DNA from: Nitrospirota bacterium
GTDB taxonomy: Bacteria > Nitrospirota > Thermodesulfovibrionia > Thermodesulfovibrionales > Dissulfurispiraceae
DNA: 64,000 bases
NCBI GenBank assembly: GCA_040752355.1
Contig: JBFMHE010000020.1
Span: 1 to 64,000, forward strand
Direction of reading: 5' to 3'
Part shown: piece by piece, positions 10,032-59,102 of the stretch
Numbering within the stretch: the stretch's first letter is position 1
Layout: the number at the start of each line of letters is the position of its first letter
The notes under the pieces: model-generated
What the model saw: the letters and a program-made list of their open reading frames with translations, nothing else
Database searches by the model: none
What the model was told of the DNA's origin: nothing
Translations under genes and position numbers: made by a program

Positions 10032-10784
10032 ATGGACATAGTTACTGCGCGCAGCCTCGTGAAGGAGTACGGCTCCTTCCGGGCAGTCGATGGTATAGAT
10101 TTTTCGATCGTGAAGGGCGAGTGCTTCGGGTTCCTGGGGCCGAACGGGGCGGGGAAAACGACGGTCATGCGCATCATCCACTGCTTTCTGCCGCCCACGT
10201 CGGGAGAGGTGCGGGTCTTCGGCAGGGAGGTGACCGAAGAGCCGAGCGCGATCAAGGCCTGCATCGGCGTGATGCCGCAGGACAACAACCTCGACCCCGA
10301 TCTGACGGTCTTCGAGAACCTGATCGTCTATGCGCGGTATTTCGATATCCCGAAGCGGGATTCGGTACCCCTCGCCGGGGAGCTCCTCGACTTTGTCGAG
10401 CTGCGGGAAAAGGCGAAGGCGAAGATCGAGAGCCTTTCGGGCGGCATGAAGCACCGCCTCCTGCTGGCGCGGGCGCTCATCAATACGCCGGAGCTCCTCA
10501 TCCTCGACGAGCCGACGACCGGGCTCGACCCCCACAGCCGCCATGCCGTATGGAACAAGCTGAACCAGCTGAAGGAGAAGGGGACCACCCTGATTCTCAC
10601 GACCCACTACATGGAAGAGGCGGAGCAGATCTGCGACCGCGTGGCGATCATGGACCTGGGGAAGATCGTCACGATCGATTCGCCGGCCCGGCTCATGGAG
10701 ACGCACGGCGGCAATCTCGAAGACGTCTACCTGAAGCTCACCGGGAAGCGCCTCGCCACCGATATCTACCGGGGCGCCTCATGA
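10032..10784 (+). CDS. ABC-2 type exporter, ATP-binding protein (NodI-like)
   Basis: A 250-aa ATPase with Walker A GPNGAGKTT (residues 36-44), Q-loop region, signature LSGGM, Walker B LLILDEPTTGLD and switch His in LTTHYMEEAEQ. It would energise export by the membrane subunit encoded by the next gene, which overlaps as ATGA. The pair resembles NodIJ and DrrAB-type exporters of lipids, polysaccharides or drugs; the substrate cannot be told. The ATG at 10032 is chosen because the conserved beta-strand start (IVTARSLVKEYG) follows at once. Confidence 0.92.
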   Translation: MDIVTARSLVKEYGSFRAVDGIDFSIVKGECFGFLGPNGAGKTTVMRIIHCFLPPTSGEVRVFGREVTEEPSAIKACIGVMPQDNNLDPDLTVFENLIVYARYFDIPKRDSVPLAGELLDFVELREKAKAKIESLSGGMKHRLLLARALINTPELLILDEPTTGLDPHSRHAVWNKLNQLKEKGTTLILTTHYMEEAEQICDRVAIMDLGKIVTIDSPARLMETHGGNLEDVYLKLTGKRLATDIYRGAS

Positions 10785-51244: not shown

Positions 51245-52102
51245 TCACAACCAGATATCCAGCTTTTCCTTTATGAACTGCAGTGTATCGCGAAGAAAGG
51301 TTTTGGTCCTGCTGATGAGGCTCTGCTTATTCTCCTCGATGGATCGGGCCCTGCCTTCCAGTTGGGCCTGGAGCCGTTCGGCCCTCGCACCGGGGTCCGG
51401 GTGGCTCGAGAGGAAGGAGTGACCGCTGCCCAGGCCCGCAAGTTTCTTCAACGCCGACACCGCGTCCCCGGGCCTGTACTTTTCGCGCCGGAGAAAGGCC
51501 AGCCCGTAGTCATCCGCCTCTTTCTCTTCGAGCTGGGAGAACTGGGCGTTCATCAGGTCTTCGGCGAGCCCGCCGAGCACCGACTGCGCGATATCGCCCG
51601 CAGCATTGTTCTGGGATGCGATACCCTTGCGCACTGCGCTCGCGGCATAGGCGAGCTGCACCTTTTTCCGGATATGCTTCTTCATCACATGCCCCATCTC
51701 GTGGCCGATAACGAAGCGCACTTCTCCGTCATTCAGCATATCCATGAGACCGCTATGGATGCGGATCGTCCCGTCCGCCATCGCAAACGCGTTCGCCTCG
51801 GGGGATATATAGACAGCATAATTGAATTTCTGGTCACCGTCCTGGTAGTGCCGCCCCACCAGCCGCCGGAGCCGCTTCGCATACTCGCTGTCGGCCGGGG
51901 CGAGCCTCTGCTTTGCATCCGCATACCGCGCCGACGCTGCCGCGATCTCCACCACCTCCTTGTCGGAAAGCGTCACCGCCCTCACCGCATCGATCCCCGC
52001 GTCGGTAGCGACAGTGATATCCGTATTTTCGCAGCCGGCAAAAAGGATAAGACAAAGCAGCAACAGCGGGGTCAGGTCTTGAATCTTGAATTCGGCGATC
52101 AT
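51245..52102 (-). CDS. M48-family metalloprotease lipoprotein (N terminus rewritten by a RAYT element)
   Basis: 285 aa. Zinc site HEMGH with the later Glu in EEKEADDYG, and a BepA/LoiP-like body (DAVRAVTLSDKEVVEIAAASARY). A lipobox ends the signal (LLLLCLILFAGC). The ATG overlaps the stop of the RAYT transposase (ATGA), and residues 4-12 (EFKIQDLTP) are encoded by the transposon's terminal repeat. The original start has been replaced; export of the resulting peptide is unverified. Probably outer-membrane quality control. Confidence 0.85.
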   Translation of the reverse strand: MIAEFKIQDLTPLLLLCLILFAGCENTDITVATDAGIDAVRAVTLSDKEVVEIAAASARYADAKQRLAPADSEYAKRLRRLVGRHYQDGDQKFNYAVYISPEANAFAMADGTIRIHSGLMDMLNDGEVRFVIGHEMGHVMKKHIRKKVQLAYAASAVRKGIASQNNAAGDIAQSVLGGLAEDLMNAQFSQLEEKEADDYGLAFLRREKYRPGDAVSALKKLAGLGSGHSFLSSHPDPGARAERLQAQLEGRARSIEENKQSLISRTKTFLRDTLQFIKEKLDIWL

Positions 52103-52997
52103 CTCTTTAAGACTTTGCTCACGGTCGAGTAATGCACGCTCAGATAATCAGCAATCTCTTTCTGGCTGTAACCGAATCTTTCTACTGCCTCAGCGATCTT
52201 TCTATTGCGCGCATCCTTGTTTCTTGCTGTCCGCTCTTTGAATAGTTGATCGAGATCGGGCCTATTGGGGTACCTCTGTTTTTTGGGAATCTCACATACA
52301 TCGCGGTGTCCTTTCAGGCGGTCGCCGAGCCCCTTGGAGAATTCCTCGTCGCCGAGCAGCACTTGCCCGGTGAGCTGTTTCCAAACTGTCTCGTTTCCGA
52401 TCCCTTCACTGACAAAGTCTCCATACTTCCGCCCGGCAGTTCTCCTGGTCTTGGCAAACTGGCCGAGTATCCATTCCGTCGTGAGCGCCGCATGGGGCTG
52501 TTCCATTCCTGCAGTTGCCCGGTAGCTGCTCCACGGCCACCGCTCCGGGCTCTTCACCGCTCCGGCCCGCACCGGATTCAATACCACATAGCGGCTCACT
52601 TCAAGAAGGTGGCTCTCTTTCTGAATGATTACCGCTTTATACCTGCCCTGAAATATATGGCCGCACCGATCGCGGCGTTTGTTGAAGGCTTGAGTATAAA
52701 CTCCATTCAGCTGCCGCATTCCCTTTGAGAGGTTTCCTTCGGGGGTCTCGATGACGAGGTGATAGTGGTTGTCCATGAGGCAATAGGCATGGCAGAGCCA
52801 GTGAAAGCGTTCGTTTACTTTCTGGAGAAGGTTGAGGAAGAGGTGGCGGTCCTCTTTATCGAGGAAAACCGGCTTGCGTTCGTTGCCGCGGGTGGTGACG
52901 TGATACACTGCGCCCTCATATTCGATTCTCAAGGGTCTCGCCATGGGATTTTATACCATAAGGATTGGCGTGAATTCAAGATTCAAGACCTGACCCC
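52068..52997. mobile_element. RAYT transposable element with perfect 26-bp inverted ends
   Basis: 52068-52093 and 52972-52997 are exact reverse complements (outer GGGGTCAGGTCTTGAATC...; inner GAATTC). Between them is a single transposase gene. No target-site duplication is visible, as expected for HUH-type transposases. The left end is inside the M48 gene, the right end inside a cytochrome-like gene. Confidence 0.9.
52099..52944 (-). CDS. REP-associated tyrosine transposase (RAYT, Y1_Tnp)
   Basis: 281 aa. The HUH motif is NHYHLVIETP and the catalytic tyrosine sits in FQGRYKAVII. MARPLRIEYEGAVYHVTTRGN and YLVLNPVRAG-like (RYVVLNPVRAGAV) are RAYT hallmarks. A C-terminal helix-turn-helix (SQKEIADYLSVHYSTVSKVLKR) may bind the REP ends. 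It acts as a single-strand nuclease on REP hairpins. Its stop overlaps the M48 start (ATGA). Confidence 0.95.
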   Translation of the reverse strand: MARPLRIEYEGAVYHVTTRGNERKPVFLDKEDRHLFLNLLQKVNERFHWLCHAYCLMDNHYHLVIETPEGNLSKGMRQLNGVYTQAFNKRRDRCGHIFQGRYKAVIIQKESHLLEVSRYVVLNPVRAGAVKSPERWPWSSYRATAGMEQPHAALTTEWILGQFAKTRRTAGRKYGDFVSEGIGNETVWKQLTGQVLLGDEEFSKGLGDRLKGHRDVCEIPKKQRYPNRPDLDQLFKERTARNKDARNRKIAEAVERFGYSQKEIADYLSVHYSTVSKVLKR

Positions 52998-53538: not shown

Positions 53539-53900
53539 AATCAGCCTCCTTATGGTATAAATTTACGCCAAAGGCGTAGTGGTAAGCAGCTGCACTCGGC
53601 CCGGTCACAATCAGAAGAAAATGGCTGTTCGATCTCGCTTGGTGATAAAGCGTCTTTGGTGTTTAGAGCAGAATGCCGTGGTCACCTATAGGGGATACGA
53701 AGGGAGGAGAGGAAGAGATACAGGCCATACGGATCATCTACGCGGTTCACCTCCTTGAATGCCTCGAGAGAGGCCTCGACGGCGTGAAAGCACATTCGCC
53801 TATGTACTCGTTTTACTTACTTAGTATCACAAATCGTACATTCGGGCAAGTTGTTCGACTCCACGGTGAGGCCACCACCGCAGTGGGGTCACACCGCAGT
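53539..53900. other. Gap between the truncated cytochrome gene and the small RAYT element
   Basis: 362 bp. A 15-mer ACCGCAGTGGGGTCA occurs twice (53877-53891, 53893-53907), the second copy running into the element's end. An 80-codon open frame (53673-53915) lacks a start signal and looks like debris. No other feature seen. Confidence 0.5.
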
Positions 53901-54139
53901 GGGGTCAGGTCTTGAATCTTGAATTCGTCGACCAGCTCCCCATAATCCTACTCACTGTAGAGCGCTTCCGCGCTCTTTTTCAGGCTATTGCTATGGCTCT
54001 ACAAGTCATTCAACACGATGGAGTTCCGCCCCGGCGGGTGGTGTCGCGATACACTGCCCCCTCATATTCGATTCTCAAGGGACGGGATTCTTTTATGCCC
54101 TAAGTAATAGCGAGAATTCAGGATTCAAGACCTGACCCC
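53901..54139. mobile_element. Internally deleted RAYT derivative (MITE-like, 239 bp)
   Basis: The left end (53901-53926) is identical to the RAYT left end; the right end (54114-54139) matches with one change. Internally, the segment just before the right end (GATACACTGCCCCCTCATATTCGATTCTCAAGG region) is homologous to the transposase start of the full element. It has no intact gene and must depend on the transposase in trans. Its right end abuts the Dam fragment. Confidence 0.85.
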
Positions 54140-54141
54140 AT

Positions 54142-54420
54142 TCACCATCCCCTAATCGTGTAATAGAAGTCCTCAGTGTTCTTATATGCTCGCAGGATTT
54201 TAATAAGGCCCTCAGGGTCGGTCTGCAAACTGATGTAAGTACAGATCAATTCTCTGTTTAAGTCTGAGAGAAATGCTTTTGTTGGCTTAATTGATAGGAA
54301 AATTGAGCCGCCGCCCAGAAAAGGTTCATGATAGTTTTTGAATCCATCCATAGGCAGAAACTTAGTAATATGACCTACAAGCCAGTTTTTACCACCAGCC
54401 CATCTCAAAAAAGGTTTCAC
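54142..54420 (-). pseudogene. 5' fragment of a Dam-type adenine methylase
   Basis: From GTG 54420: VKPFLRWAGGKNWLVGHI, HEPFLGGGSIFLSI and FLSDLNRELICTY, the SAM-binding motifs of the M.DpnII/Dam class (N6-adenine, GATC). The frame ends at YYTIRGW just before the right end of the small RAYT element, so the catalytic DPPY half is missing. An upstream extension of the frame crosses a terminator hairpin and is not coding. Confidence 0.75.
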
Positions 54421-54480
54421 TGTGCCTGTTGCTCTTATAGCCACTGTTCTCTTCGTGATACAGAACGAAATATTCCAATA

Positions 54481-54541
54481 AAAAAGGGCTGACCTCAAAG
54501 AGGACAGCCCCTTGCTCACCCTATGTGCAATACAGCCTTTG
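54481..54541. repeat. Copy of the gyrB terminator region at the far edge of the restriction island
   Basis: Stem GGGCTG.CCTC/GAGG.CAGCCC with A/T flanks, followed by ACCCTATGTGCAATACAGCC, then TTTG (54518-54541). The same hairpin and the same trailing 24 bases (one mismatch) lie next to the gyrB stop at 56592-56653. The hairpin is inverted between the copies while the trailing part is direct. Confidence 0.75.
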
Positions 54542-54547
54542 TATCGG

Positions 54548-54675
54548 TTTGCACAATTAATGAAAATTCCCCTTACGGCATTTCAATGACTTACAAGAAT
54601 TTTTTGCATAAATAATGAAAAGGTTTTTGCACATAAAGTGAAAAAAAACCGAAGAATTTGCATATAAAATGAAAA
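54548..54675. repeat. Four iteron-like palindromic repeats
   Basis: TTTGCAY-N5-RTGAAAA occurs at 54548-54566, 54603-54621, 54626-54644 and 54657-54675, all in the same orientation. Each is an imperfect palindrome. In copy 3 the arms are CAC/GTG; in copies 2 and 4 they are CAT/ATG, a compensatory change. Copy 1 has CAC/ATG. The spacing is irregular (55, 23, 31 bp), so it is not a CRISPR. Confidence 0.65.
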
Positions 54676-54847
54676 TTTCCGGAAGTTTTAGTTCTCCACG
54701 CAATTGTTAGCCAGGATGTCTATGATATATATGCTAATTTATATGATGCTTATTAAAGAATAGCTCGATCTTAAAAGTGATGGTTCTTATTGATGCAGCT
54801 TCCGATGTAGTTCCGTTAAAAGTGTTTCTCTTATTTTGAGTCAGTGA
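54676..54847. other. Rest of the gap before the small membrane protein
   Basis: Very AT-rich, no reading frame with a start signal, no repeat recognised. Confidence 0.35.
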
Positions 54848-55081
54848 CTAGCGCTGGGAATTGGAAGGGGAACTTTTTTTGTGGCTTTGCTTGGTTTTTT
54901 TGCTACCAGGACTGTCCTGCTTGCGATCTTGTTGAGGTTTTATCGTATTACTATTGGGACTACCCTGTTGCTGTTCTATTTGTCCTCCCTTTGATTGCGA
55001 ACTCTTCCATAAGGAGTATACATGCTGAAAGCCAAGAGTCAGGAGAATTCCAACGATTGCAGACACAATTGCCCATTCCAT
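54848..55081 (-). CDS. Small membrane protein of the restriction island
   Basis: 77 aa from MEWAIVSAIVGILLTLGFQHVYSLW: one N-terminal membrane helix followed by a polar Gln/Ser/Lys/Pro tail. AT-rich codons match the island. It could anchor at the membrane; no family recognised. A longer frame start (55129) lacks a ribosome site. Confidence 0.5.
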   Translation of the reverse strand: MEWAIVSAIVGILLTLGFQHVYSLWKSSQSKGGQIEQQQGSPNSNTIKPQQDRKQDSPGSKKTKQSHKKSSPSNSQR

Positions 55082-55296
55082 ATTGTGAGACCATGTTCCC
55101 CTGTCTGTTAGGGTTGCAGCGTGGTGCAACTCCTCATGCTTATTAGCGATTTTTAATTACTTCTTAGTGTAAGTTGAACATACTGGAAGTAGTTGTTTGA
55201 AATAACTTAAATATAACGAGGGCGATGTACTATAGTTGCTGGCTGTTACAAAAGAGCTTCCAGAAAGCTATAAATAAAATATTAAATCGTTCTCAG

Positions 55297-55962
55297 TTAC
55301 GGAAGATACCTTCGTTTCCTCTCGAAAAGAGAGACCACTCGCTGACTATGGTTCGCATATGTTGACCATGAGGGCGTGTAATCCTCAACCTCATTTCCCC
55401 ACTGATGCCAGTTTTTGCGTTTACCTCTAGCAAAAAGCTCAAGGTAAGGCCCAGGGCTGCATGCCTCGATAATTCCATAAAGCTCATCAGGCTTCCTTGA
55501 ATGTTCTCGTTTTTGTGATTTTATTATGTTCACTTGGCTTCTTCCAGGAGCAAGTGTCCTTAATTTGCCCCTTATACCAAAGAGAATCATTTCTGTCGTA
55601 TTACGGAAGTAAAAACCAACGCCACGGCCGTCTGGCCCGCCATCCTTACGAATTTTGTGCCAAATAATGTTTGTTTTATATTGAAAGCCCCATGCCTCCA
55701 TCACTTCCATTCCCTCTCTGAGCAATGCATTAGGTACCCACAGATACAGATGACTCTCCTCAGCAACAGCCAAAGAAACCGGTACCTCCTTAATTTCTTG
55801 AAGGGTAAGCGTTGAATATCTATTTAGCCTTTTGTGTTCGGGCGCCATTTTGCCGGTACGATTAGCAAACTGCCAAGGCGGGTCCGCTAAAATAGTACTA
55901 TATTTCTTTGACCCGATATATTTAATAAAATCTTCAGCTGGTTTTAACACACGCTCAGTCAT
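55297..55962 (-). CDS. MT-A70-family DNA N6-adenine methyltransferase
   Basis: 221 aa from ATG 55962 (GAGGAG upstream). The catalytic motif DPPW (STILADPPWQFANRTGKM) and the SAM region PDELYGIIEACSPGPYLELFAR are typical of MT-A70 enzymes, which methylate adenine N6. It begins 2 bp after the stop of the BglII-like endonuclease gene and is its likely partner in a type II system. AT-rich codons. Confidence 0.9.
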   Translation of the reverse strand: MTERVLKPAEDFIKYIGSKKYSTILADPPWQFANRTGKMAPEHKRLNRYSTLTLQEIKEVPVSLAVAEESHLYLWVPNALLREGMEVMEAWGFQYKTNIIWHKIRKDGGPDGRGVGFYFRNTTEMILFGIRGKLRTLAPGRSQVNIIKSQKREHSRKPDELYGIIEACSPGPYLELFARGKRKNWHQWGNEVEDYTPSWSTYANHSQRVVSLFERKRRYLP

Positions 55963-55964
55963 AT

Positions 55965-56555
55965 TTAGCACTCCTCATCATATAATTTCTTGCTTATCCC
56001 AAAAACGAGAATCGGACACCCGCCACCACTCCCGCCCTCTACTCTTGGTTTCAATTTTGATATATGAGTTGTTGATTGCCCATATGATGAGCCTCTACCT
56101 AAATCATTGAATAATTCTTGGAGATGATCACATCTTGTTATAATTACCCCAACACTGACCGTTCTCAACTCAAATAATAAGCGAAAATTATTCAAATCTC
56201 GATCAAAAAATGGATCCTTATTATTCCATTCAATTTCCAATGCCACTCTATTTTTGAAGCAGTCGACCTTGTGCGTGGGAGAATCCATTATATGCTCATC
56301 TACTTTTACCGATGTGGAGAATTTTTTCTCTACCCAACCACGCGCATATAAGAAATCATCTATTGCTTTTGATACAGACGACTTGCTTCCTCCCCCGACA
56401 GTAATCCAACTCTTGCAGAAACGAAACTGTTTTAATAAATCTATGATATCCTGCCATTCTGAAGGAAAATCCTGCGCCAAGATAGCGCAGGCATGCTTCC
56501 ATTCATAGACTTCATAATTCTCTAAGATAAATTCAGGTAAAAGCTCTTTGCCCAT
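55965..56555 (-). CDS. BglII/BstYI-like type II restriction endonuclease
   Basis: 196 aa from MGKELLPEF (ATG 56567 is an alternative). The PD-(D/E)xK-like core is visible: HKVDCFKNRVALEIEWNNKDPFFDRDLNNFRLLF, and the C-terminal GGCPILVFGI. The match to the BglII family (recognition of AGATCT/RGATCY-type sites) is based on remembered motif order and the MT-A70 partner. Specificity cannot be read from the sequence. Confidence 0.75.
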   Translation of the reverse strand: MGKELLPEFILENYEVYEWKHACAILAQDFPSEWQDIIDLLKQFRFCKSWITVGGGSKSSVSKAIDDFLYARGWVEKKFSTSVKVDEHIMDSPTHKVDCFKNRVALEIEWNNKDPFFDRDLNNFRLLFELRTVSVGVIITRCDHLQELFNDLGRGSSYGQSTTHISKLKPRVEGGSGGGCPILVFGISKKLYDEEC

Positions 56556-56591
56556 TATGGCCCCCAACTATATAGAAAGCTTCAAACATAC

Positions 56592-56653
56592 AAAAAGGGG
56601 CTGTCCTCTTTGAGGTCAGCCCCTTTTTTACCCTATGTGCAATACAACCTTTG
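56592..56653 (-). terminator. gyrB terminator and island border repeat
   Basis: GGGGCTG-t-CCTC, TTT loop, GAGG-t-CAGCCCC flanked by A5 and T6 (56592-56629) terminates gyrB on the minus strand and the island on the plus strand. The adjacent ACCCTATGTGCAATACAACC (56630-56649), then TTTG, is the direct-repeat partner of 54518-54541. Confidence 0.85.
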
Positions 56654-56657
56654 CACT

Positions 56658-59102
<2,445 letters not shown>

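Follow-up and report, generated by a model that had tools for sequence, protein, structure and literature searches.

Gene Content and Repeats 3' of gyrB

The analysed window, a stretch of 64,000 nucleotides from a genome of 3.57 Mb whose gyrB has its closest named relatives in Nitrospirota genomes, harbors gyrB on the minus strand (56658–59069), with 59–85% identity to its relatives, and a restriction-modification (R-M) island on the 3' side of this gene. Three minus-strand reading frames were observed in the island, which include a BglII/BstYI-family type II restriction endonuclease of 200 aa (55965–56567), an MT-A70 family adenine methyltransferase with a DPPW motif (55297–55971) and, from the ORF list and family search, a small ORF of 93 aa (54848–55129) that exhibits an N-terminal hydrophobic stretch, lacks a family match and may not be a real gene. 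The endonuclease and the methylase had been named from the letters in an earlier sequence-only reading, and both gave full-length Pfam matches (BglII, E = 2.8e-46; MT-A70, E = 6.5e-31). Their genes are adjacent with a 7-bp overlap, the domains of both are complete, and the endonuclease residues D102, E111 and E113 are conserved in the alignment with homologues. BglII-family endonucleases lie nearly always beside an MT-A70 methylase in other genomes and viral contigs, and the same gene pair occurs on rhizobial and xanthomonad plasmids, from which the pair described here differs solely in its genomic setting. The sequence identities of the endonuclease ranged from 27 to 60% with plasmid homologues and from 52 to 72% with the closest aligned endonucleases, and those of the methylase from 61 to 70% with its best 17 plasmid matches. 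By its sequence, the R-M pair looks intact and ordinary in kind, and it is presumably active; going by the family, its specificity may be RGATCY-like.

The island is bounded by a 62-bp direct repeat (54480–54541 and 56592–56653; spacing 2112), each copy of which comprises a hairpin and a trailing sequence. The copies are 84% identical, and the search of the 3.57-Mb genome returned the second copy (E = 9.7e-13) and no third, which rules out a dispersed genomic repeat. The two gyrB-adjacent copies around the island and the AT-rich character of the segment, both pointed out in the sequence-only reading, were borne out, with a GC content of 37–43% between the repeats versus 57–66% in gyrB. The 13-nt hairpin core TCCTCTTTGAGGT is present as its exact reverse complement in the left copy, and inverting this core cuts the mismatches between the copies from ten to five, indicating that the trailing part is direct and the hairpin inverted, as had been described. 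Both hairpins fold stably (−25.4 and −23.3 kcal/mol; z −5.8 and −3.7). The gyrB 3' flanks of relatives, compared for a single-copy empty site (comparison set of 30 genomes of the same family), differ from the flank in the window. No examined relative has both copies without the island, and the genome holds no further repeat of this form, so that neither of the two cases named as refuting the sequence-only reading was encountered. An ancestral order in which gyrB is followed by an M48 protease was dropped, as the relatives do not keep such an order.

Just outside the left repeat copy lies a fragment of a Dam-family D12 adenine methylase (54142–54447, minus strand; family search), which represents the first ~100 aa, the N-terminal third, the remainder being missing from the window. 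The D12 methylase was rejected as the partner of the endonuclease since homologues mostly pair with MT-A70; the endonuclease homologues of Dyadobacter, Acinetobacter and one viral contig have a different D12 enzyme of ~395 aa as partner. Where the D12 gene breaks off, the repeat search revealed a repeat unit with inverted ends GGGGTCAGGTCTTGAATCTTGAATTC (53900–54140), and the family and repeat searches revealed a REP-associated tyrosine transposase unit (52068–52997, minus strand; gene 52099–52944). These two units share the inverted ends GGGGTCAGGTCTTGAATC, and the one at 53900 abuts the broken D12 gene.

Transposon-like Ends at the Repeat Boundary

In published Tn7-like ends, ~20-bp sites form arrays, the outermost site lying a median of 12 bp from the boundary (PMC8649781). 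Motif matches delimited a proposed left end (54540–54680, plus strand) with a TGT terminus and four ~19-bp sites, TTTGCAYAWDWADTGAAAA, which lie at 54548, 54603, 54626 and 54657 and all face inward. The terminus sequence at 54540 is TGTATCGG, and the direct repeat stops at 54541. The site pattern has four matches in the window versus 0.16 expected and a single match, with 2 mismatches, elsewhere in the genome, and the array found no match in plasmids, E. coli genomes or viral contigs. A TGT followed by four inward sites is how Tn7-like left ends are laid out. This array (54540–54675), the adjoining 5-bp spacing and the truncated D12 methylase outside the left copy were absent from the earlier reading, which had proposed site-specific or homologous insertion at a terminator. 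The TGT left end and its four inward sites lie exactly at the repeat boundary, and neither a circular intermediate nor plain homology is required for the integration.

Each repeat copy holds one right-end-like site ending in ...ACA, followed by 5 bp; in the minus-strand sense each copy reads TGTATTGCACATAGGGT..., and the plus strand finishes with ...ATACA (at 56646 on the gyrB side). The repeat, its folding and the comparison of ends place a proposed right end (TGTATTGCACATAGGGTAAAAAAGGGGCTG... on the minus strand) at 56592–56646, 11 bp from the gyrB stop codon, and its hairpin (56592–56628) is bidirectional and terminator-like, with a layout resembling the end after gyrB in the relative G022. 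From the repeat comparison, a presumed older element is assigned a right end in the distal copy (TGTATTGCACATAGGGTGAGCAAGGGGCTG...; 54480–54534, minus strand), whose hairpin core is inverted relative to the copy at 56592; no left end of this older element was found, and the D12 fragment is presumed to be a relic of its cargo. The window element shows TGT at 54540 and ACA at 56646. The proposed target duplication consists of ACCTT on the gyrB side (56647–56651) and, with one mismatch to it, GCCTT on the distal side (54535–54539), the latter occupying exactly the 5 bp that separate the old right end from the new left TGT. The target duplication of Tn7 is 5 bp. The right end is the weakest part of the transposon reading: a single site is recognisable, with a motif score of 15.1 versus a mean background maximum of 13.2 per 3 kb, which is no better than chance, its distance to the terminus is short, at 6 nt where relatives have 9 and the left end has 11, and the duplication carries one mismatch. 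Its exact position is presumptive.

The interval 54540–56646 is probably a 2.1-kb non-autonomous Tn7-like transposon carrying the BglII-family/MT-A70 pair as R-M cargo. The interval contains no tnsB, tnsC or tniQ, so the element is non-autonomous at best and not a complete Tn7-like transposon, and neither TniQ nor Mu_transpos_C_2 gave a match in the whole genome, so nothing was found there that could move it now. The site would first have held an older element from the same lineage, with the D12 methylase beside its right end, and transposition proteins acting in trans, or since lost, would then have placed the newer element 11 bp past the gyrB stop, between gyrB and the older element, with a TniQ/TnsD protein presumably reading the conserved gyrB 3' end. 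Read toward gyrB, the resulting layout would be the old right end and 5 bp, then the left end, the cargo and the right end, and a further 5 bp before the gene, and the 62-bp repeat would represent the right end (55 bp), the 5-bp target duplication and TG. Tn7-like elements inserted side by side have been reported, and R-M modules are their commonest defence cargo (PMC8649781). Since the right end carries the terminator hairpin, gyrB would keep a terminator and the cassette would lie between two; the inverted hairpin core may have arisen locally at a later stage, for instance by template switching within the palindrome. The part of the sequence-only reading that stands is an R-M island inserted at the 3' end of gyrB, which still has a terminator, whereas its view of the repeat as a duplicated gyrB terminator gives way to two proposed transposon right ends, which fit better.

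The direct repeats at both edges, together with the similar hairpin-bearing gyrB 3' flanks of G022 and G027, would also suit a circular element integrated by a single crossover or an integrase at a gyrB-terminator site, the 62-bp repeats then being attL and attR. We regard this as very improbable, since the interval has no integrase or recombinase gene, the left-end array is left unexplained, and homologous R-M loci elsewhere are generally without flanking direct repeats, no consistent flanking repeats having been found around the homologous pairs.

Termini Downstream of gyrB in Relatives

A terminus regular expression built from the proposed ends (TGT-N7-9-[GC]CA[TC]A-...-TGAA) matched the window once, at 54540, and matched directly 3' of gyrB in G022, G029 and G081 and, in G017, after the distal gyrB 3' copy, whereas 1.7 million strand-bases from unrelated contigs gave no match. 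The sequence TGTRGGNTNNNGCATANNGTGAAA, with at most one mismatch, was found six times in 175 genomes, four of the matches (the distal copy of G017, G022, G029 and G072) sitting 6–10 bp past the gyrB stop, and the reversed-pattern control gave none in the 175 genomes. TGTNGG within 30 bp past the gyrB stop (at 0–21 bp) was observed in 19 of 76 flanks of the order versus a background of 1.4%; the second copy of G017 was counted separately in this set, and as this copy, G072, G081 and G118 had been fetched for earlier matches, the unselected rate is ~15/72. Site arrays were likewise present in the gyrB flanks of G330, G111 and G034. The recurrent termini of relatives would mean that Tn7-like elements have repeatedly settled at the spot after gyrB within this order. 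TniQ was detected in only 7 of 175 genomes, so the majority of the ends linked to gyrB are relics or belong to non-autonomous elements.

Other gyrB flanks showed diverse features. In G402 (L259, the initial ~150 bp past gyrB), two different transposon-like termini follow one another within ~80 bp of the gene, which suggests that the site has been occupied more than once. G100 (L286) has a short remnant, TGTCGGATTGCACATAAGC...TCCGACA, after gyrB and, farther along, CRISPR-array-like repeats and long minus-strand ORFs resembling, by eye, Cas1 and Cas9. In G081, a frameshifted 156-bp second gyrB 3' copy lies on a separate contig, C228 (L195, ~10300–10460), where YD-repeat proteins are encoded upstream of it and ABC-transporter genes beside it. 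The additional gyrB 3' copy of G074 was not taken as a duplication, as it looks like a contig overlap instead.

G118 is the only gyrB-linked locus with tns genes. A TGTAGGAT terminus lies 3 bp past its gyrB together with three TGCARTAAA repeats, which differ in sequence from those of the window; farther out, type I R-M genes are accompanied by CBASS-like ones (a CD-NTase and a patatin gene), and beyond these defence genes, ~12–19 kb from gyrB, are tnsA, tnsB, tnsC and tniQ, the far end being off the contig. Its TnsA belongs to PF08722, its TnsB matches the TnsB chains of Tn6677 and PseTnsAB (E to 1e-50), and the locus also encodes TniB/TnsC and a TniQ protein of 1052 aa that contains several HTH domains. 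These genes bear on whether the ends in the window belong instead to some other kind of TGT/ACA element that has subterminal repeats, such as an IS21- or Tn402-like one. Multi-site ends occur in several families of this sort, and a similar array lies away from gyrB on contig C55 of G029 (L230:5780–5930), where ~six ~21-bp repeats, GTATCGCATAARATGAAATTT, and a terminus, TGTGGGAT, were found and no transposase was apparent on the stretch that was read. Such an origin is nevertheless unlikely, since the IS21-type loci recovered in the family end differently (AGGGGGTCA...TCTACA type), for which reason IS21 ends were rejected for the window element, and the gyrB-linked locus that does have transposition genes carries tnsA, tnsB, tnsC and tniQ.

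In G017 (L123:2373–3363), HEPN and MNT genes lie between 112-bp direct gyrB 3' copies that are 96% identical; a TGTAGG terminus as well as vsr, NgoMIV-type endonuclease and C5-methylase genes lie beyond the second copy. The HEPN-MNT pair between its copies is a clean-looking case, in the same family and at gyrB, of a long target duplication, and R-M genes between direct repeats of host sequence fit the pattern known from H. pylori (PMC3031569, PMC1643837). An R-M complex could similarly have entered the window by a transposase-independent route that duplicated the 62-bp gyrB 3' flank. This route has a somewhat better claim than the others weighed here, yet it is also unlikely, as it gives no account of the TGT and four-site array at the repeat boundary, of the 5-bp gap or of the matching post-gyrB termini in relatives. 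The window repeat resembles the H. pylori case in enclosing R-M genes between direct chromosomal repeats and differs from it in including a transposon-like end and a proposed 5-bp duplication.

Comparison with Known Elements and Significance

The Tn7-like transposon proposed for the window shares with Tn7 and Tn7-like elements that use TniQ/TnsD sites (glmS, tRNA genes, parE and comM) the TGT termini, ~20-bp site arrays, a putative 5-bp target duplication, insertion just downstream of an unbroken conserved gene and defence cargo (PMC8649781, PMC11406308, PMC10293859), and differs from them in lying at gyrB, in its size of 2.1 kb, in having no tns genes and in a right end made of one site and a terminator hairpin. 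Among the known chromosomal sites of Tn7-like elements are glmS, tRNA genes, parE, guaC, yciA, ffs, rsmJ and comM (review PMC11406308); gyrB or gyrase is absent from PMC8649781 and PMC10293859, and text searches of the open-access literature returned no report of Tn7 at gyrB. The Tn7017-type CAST has a TniQ-targeted site at parE (PMC11406308), and as parE is a paralogue of gyrB, a related 3'-end sequence may be recognised; the G118 locus differs from this CAST in that no CRISPR genes were seen there, in its tns proteins and in its host phylum. We put at about even chances the wider proposal of a Tn7-like attachment site, not described before, at the gyrB 3' end. It would serve several families of the order, be reoccupied repeatedly and gather defence cargo (R-M and CBASS-like genes), at times in the form of very small non-autonomous R-M cassettes that carry a terminator of their own in the right end.

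R-M systems display fast turnover, yet they are seldom found within recognisable mobile elements, and complete systems more often move autonomously or in small elements (PMC4176335). With its transposon-like ends and scarcely any cargo besides the R-M genes, the 2.1-kb cassette represents a concrete candidate vehicle for R-M transfer. The gyrB site, if true, would add an essential and universally conserved gene to the safe harbours of Tn7 and would mark a place to seek defence genes in a poorly cultured phylum.
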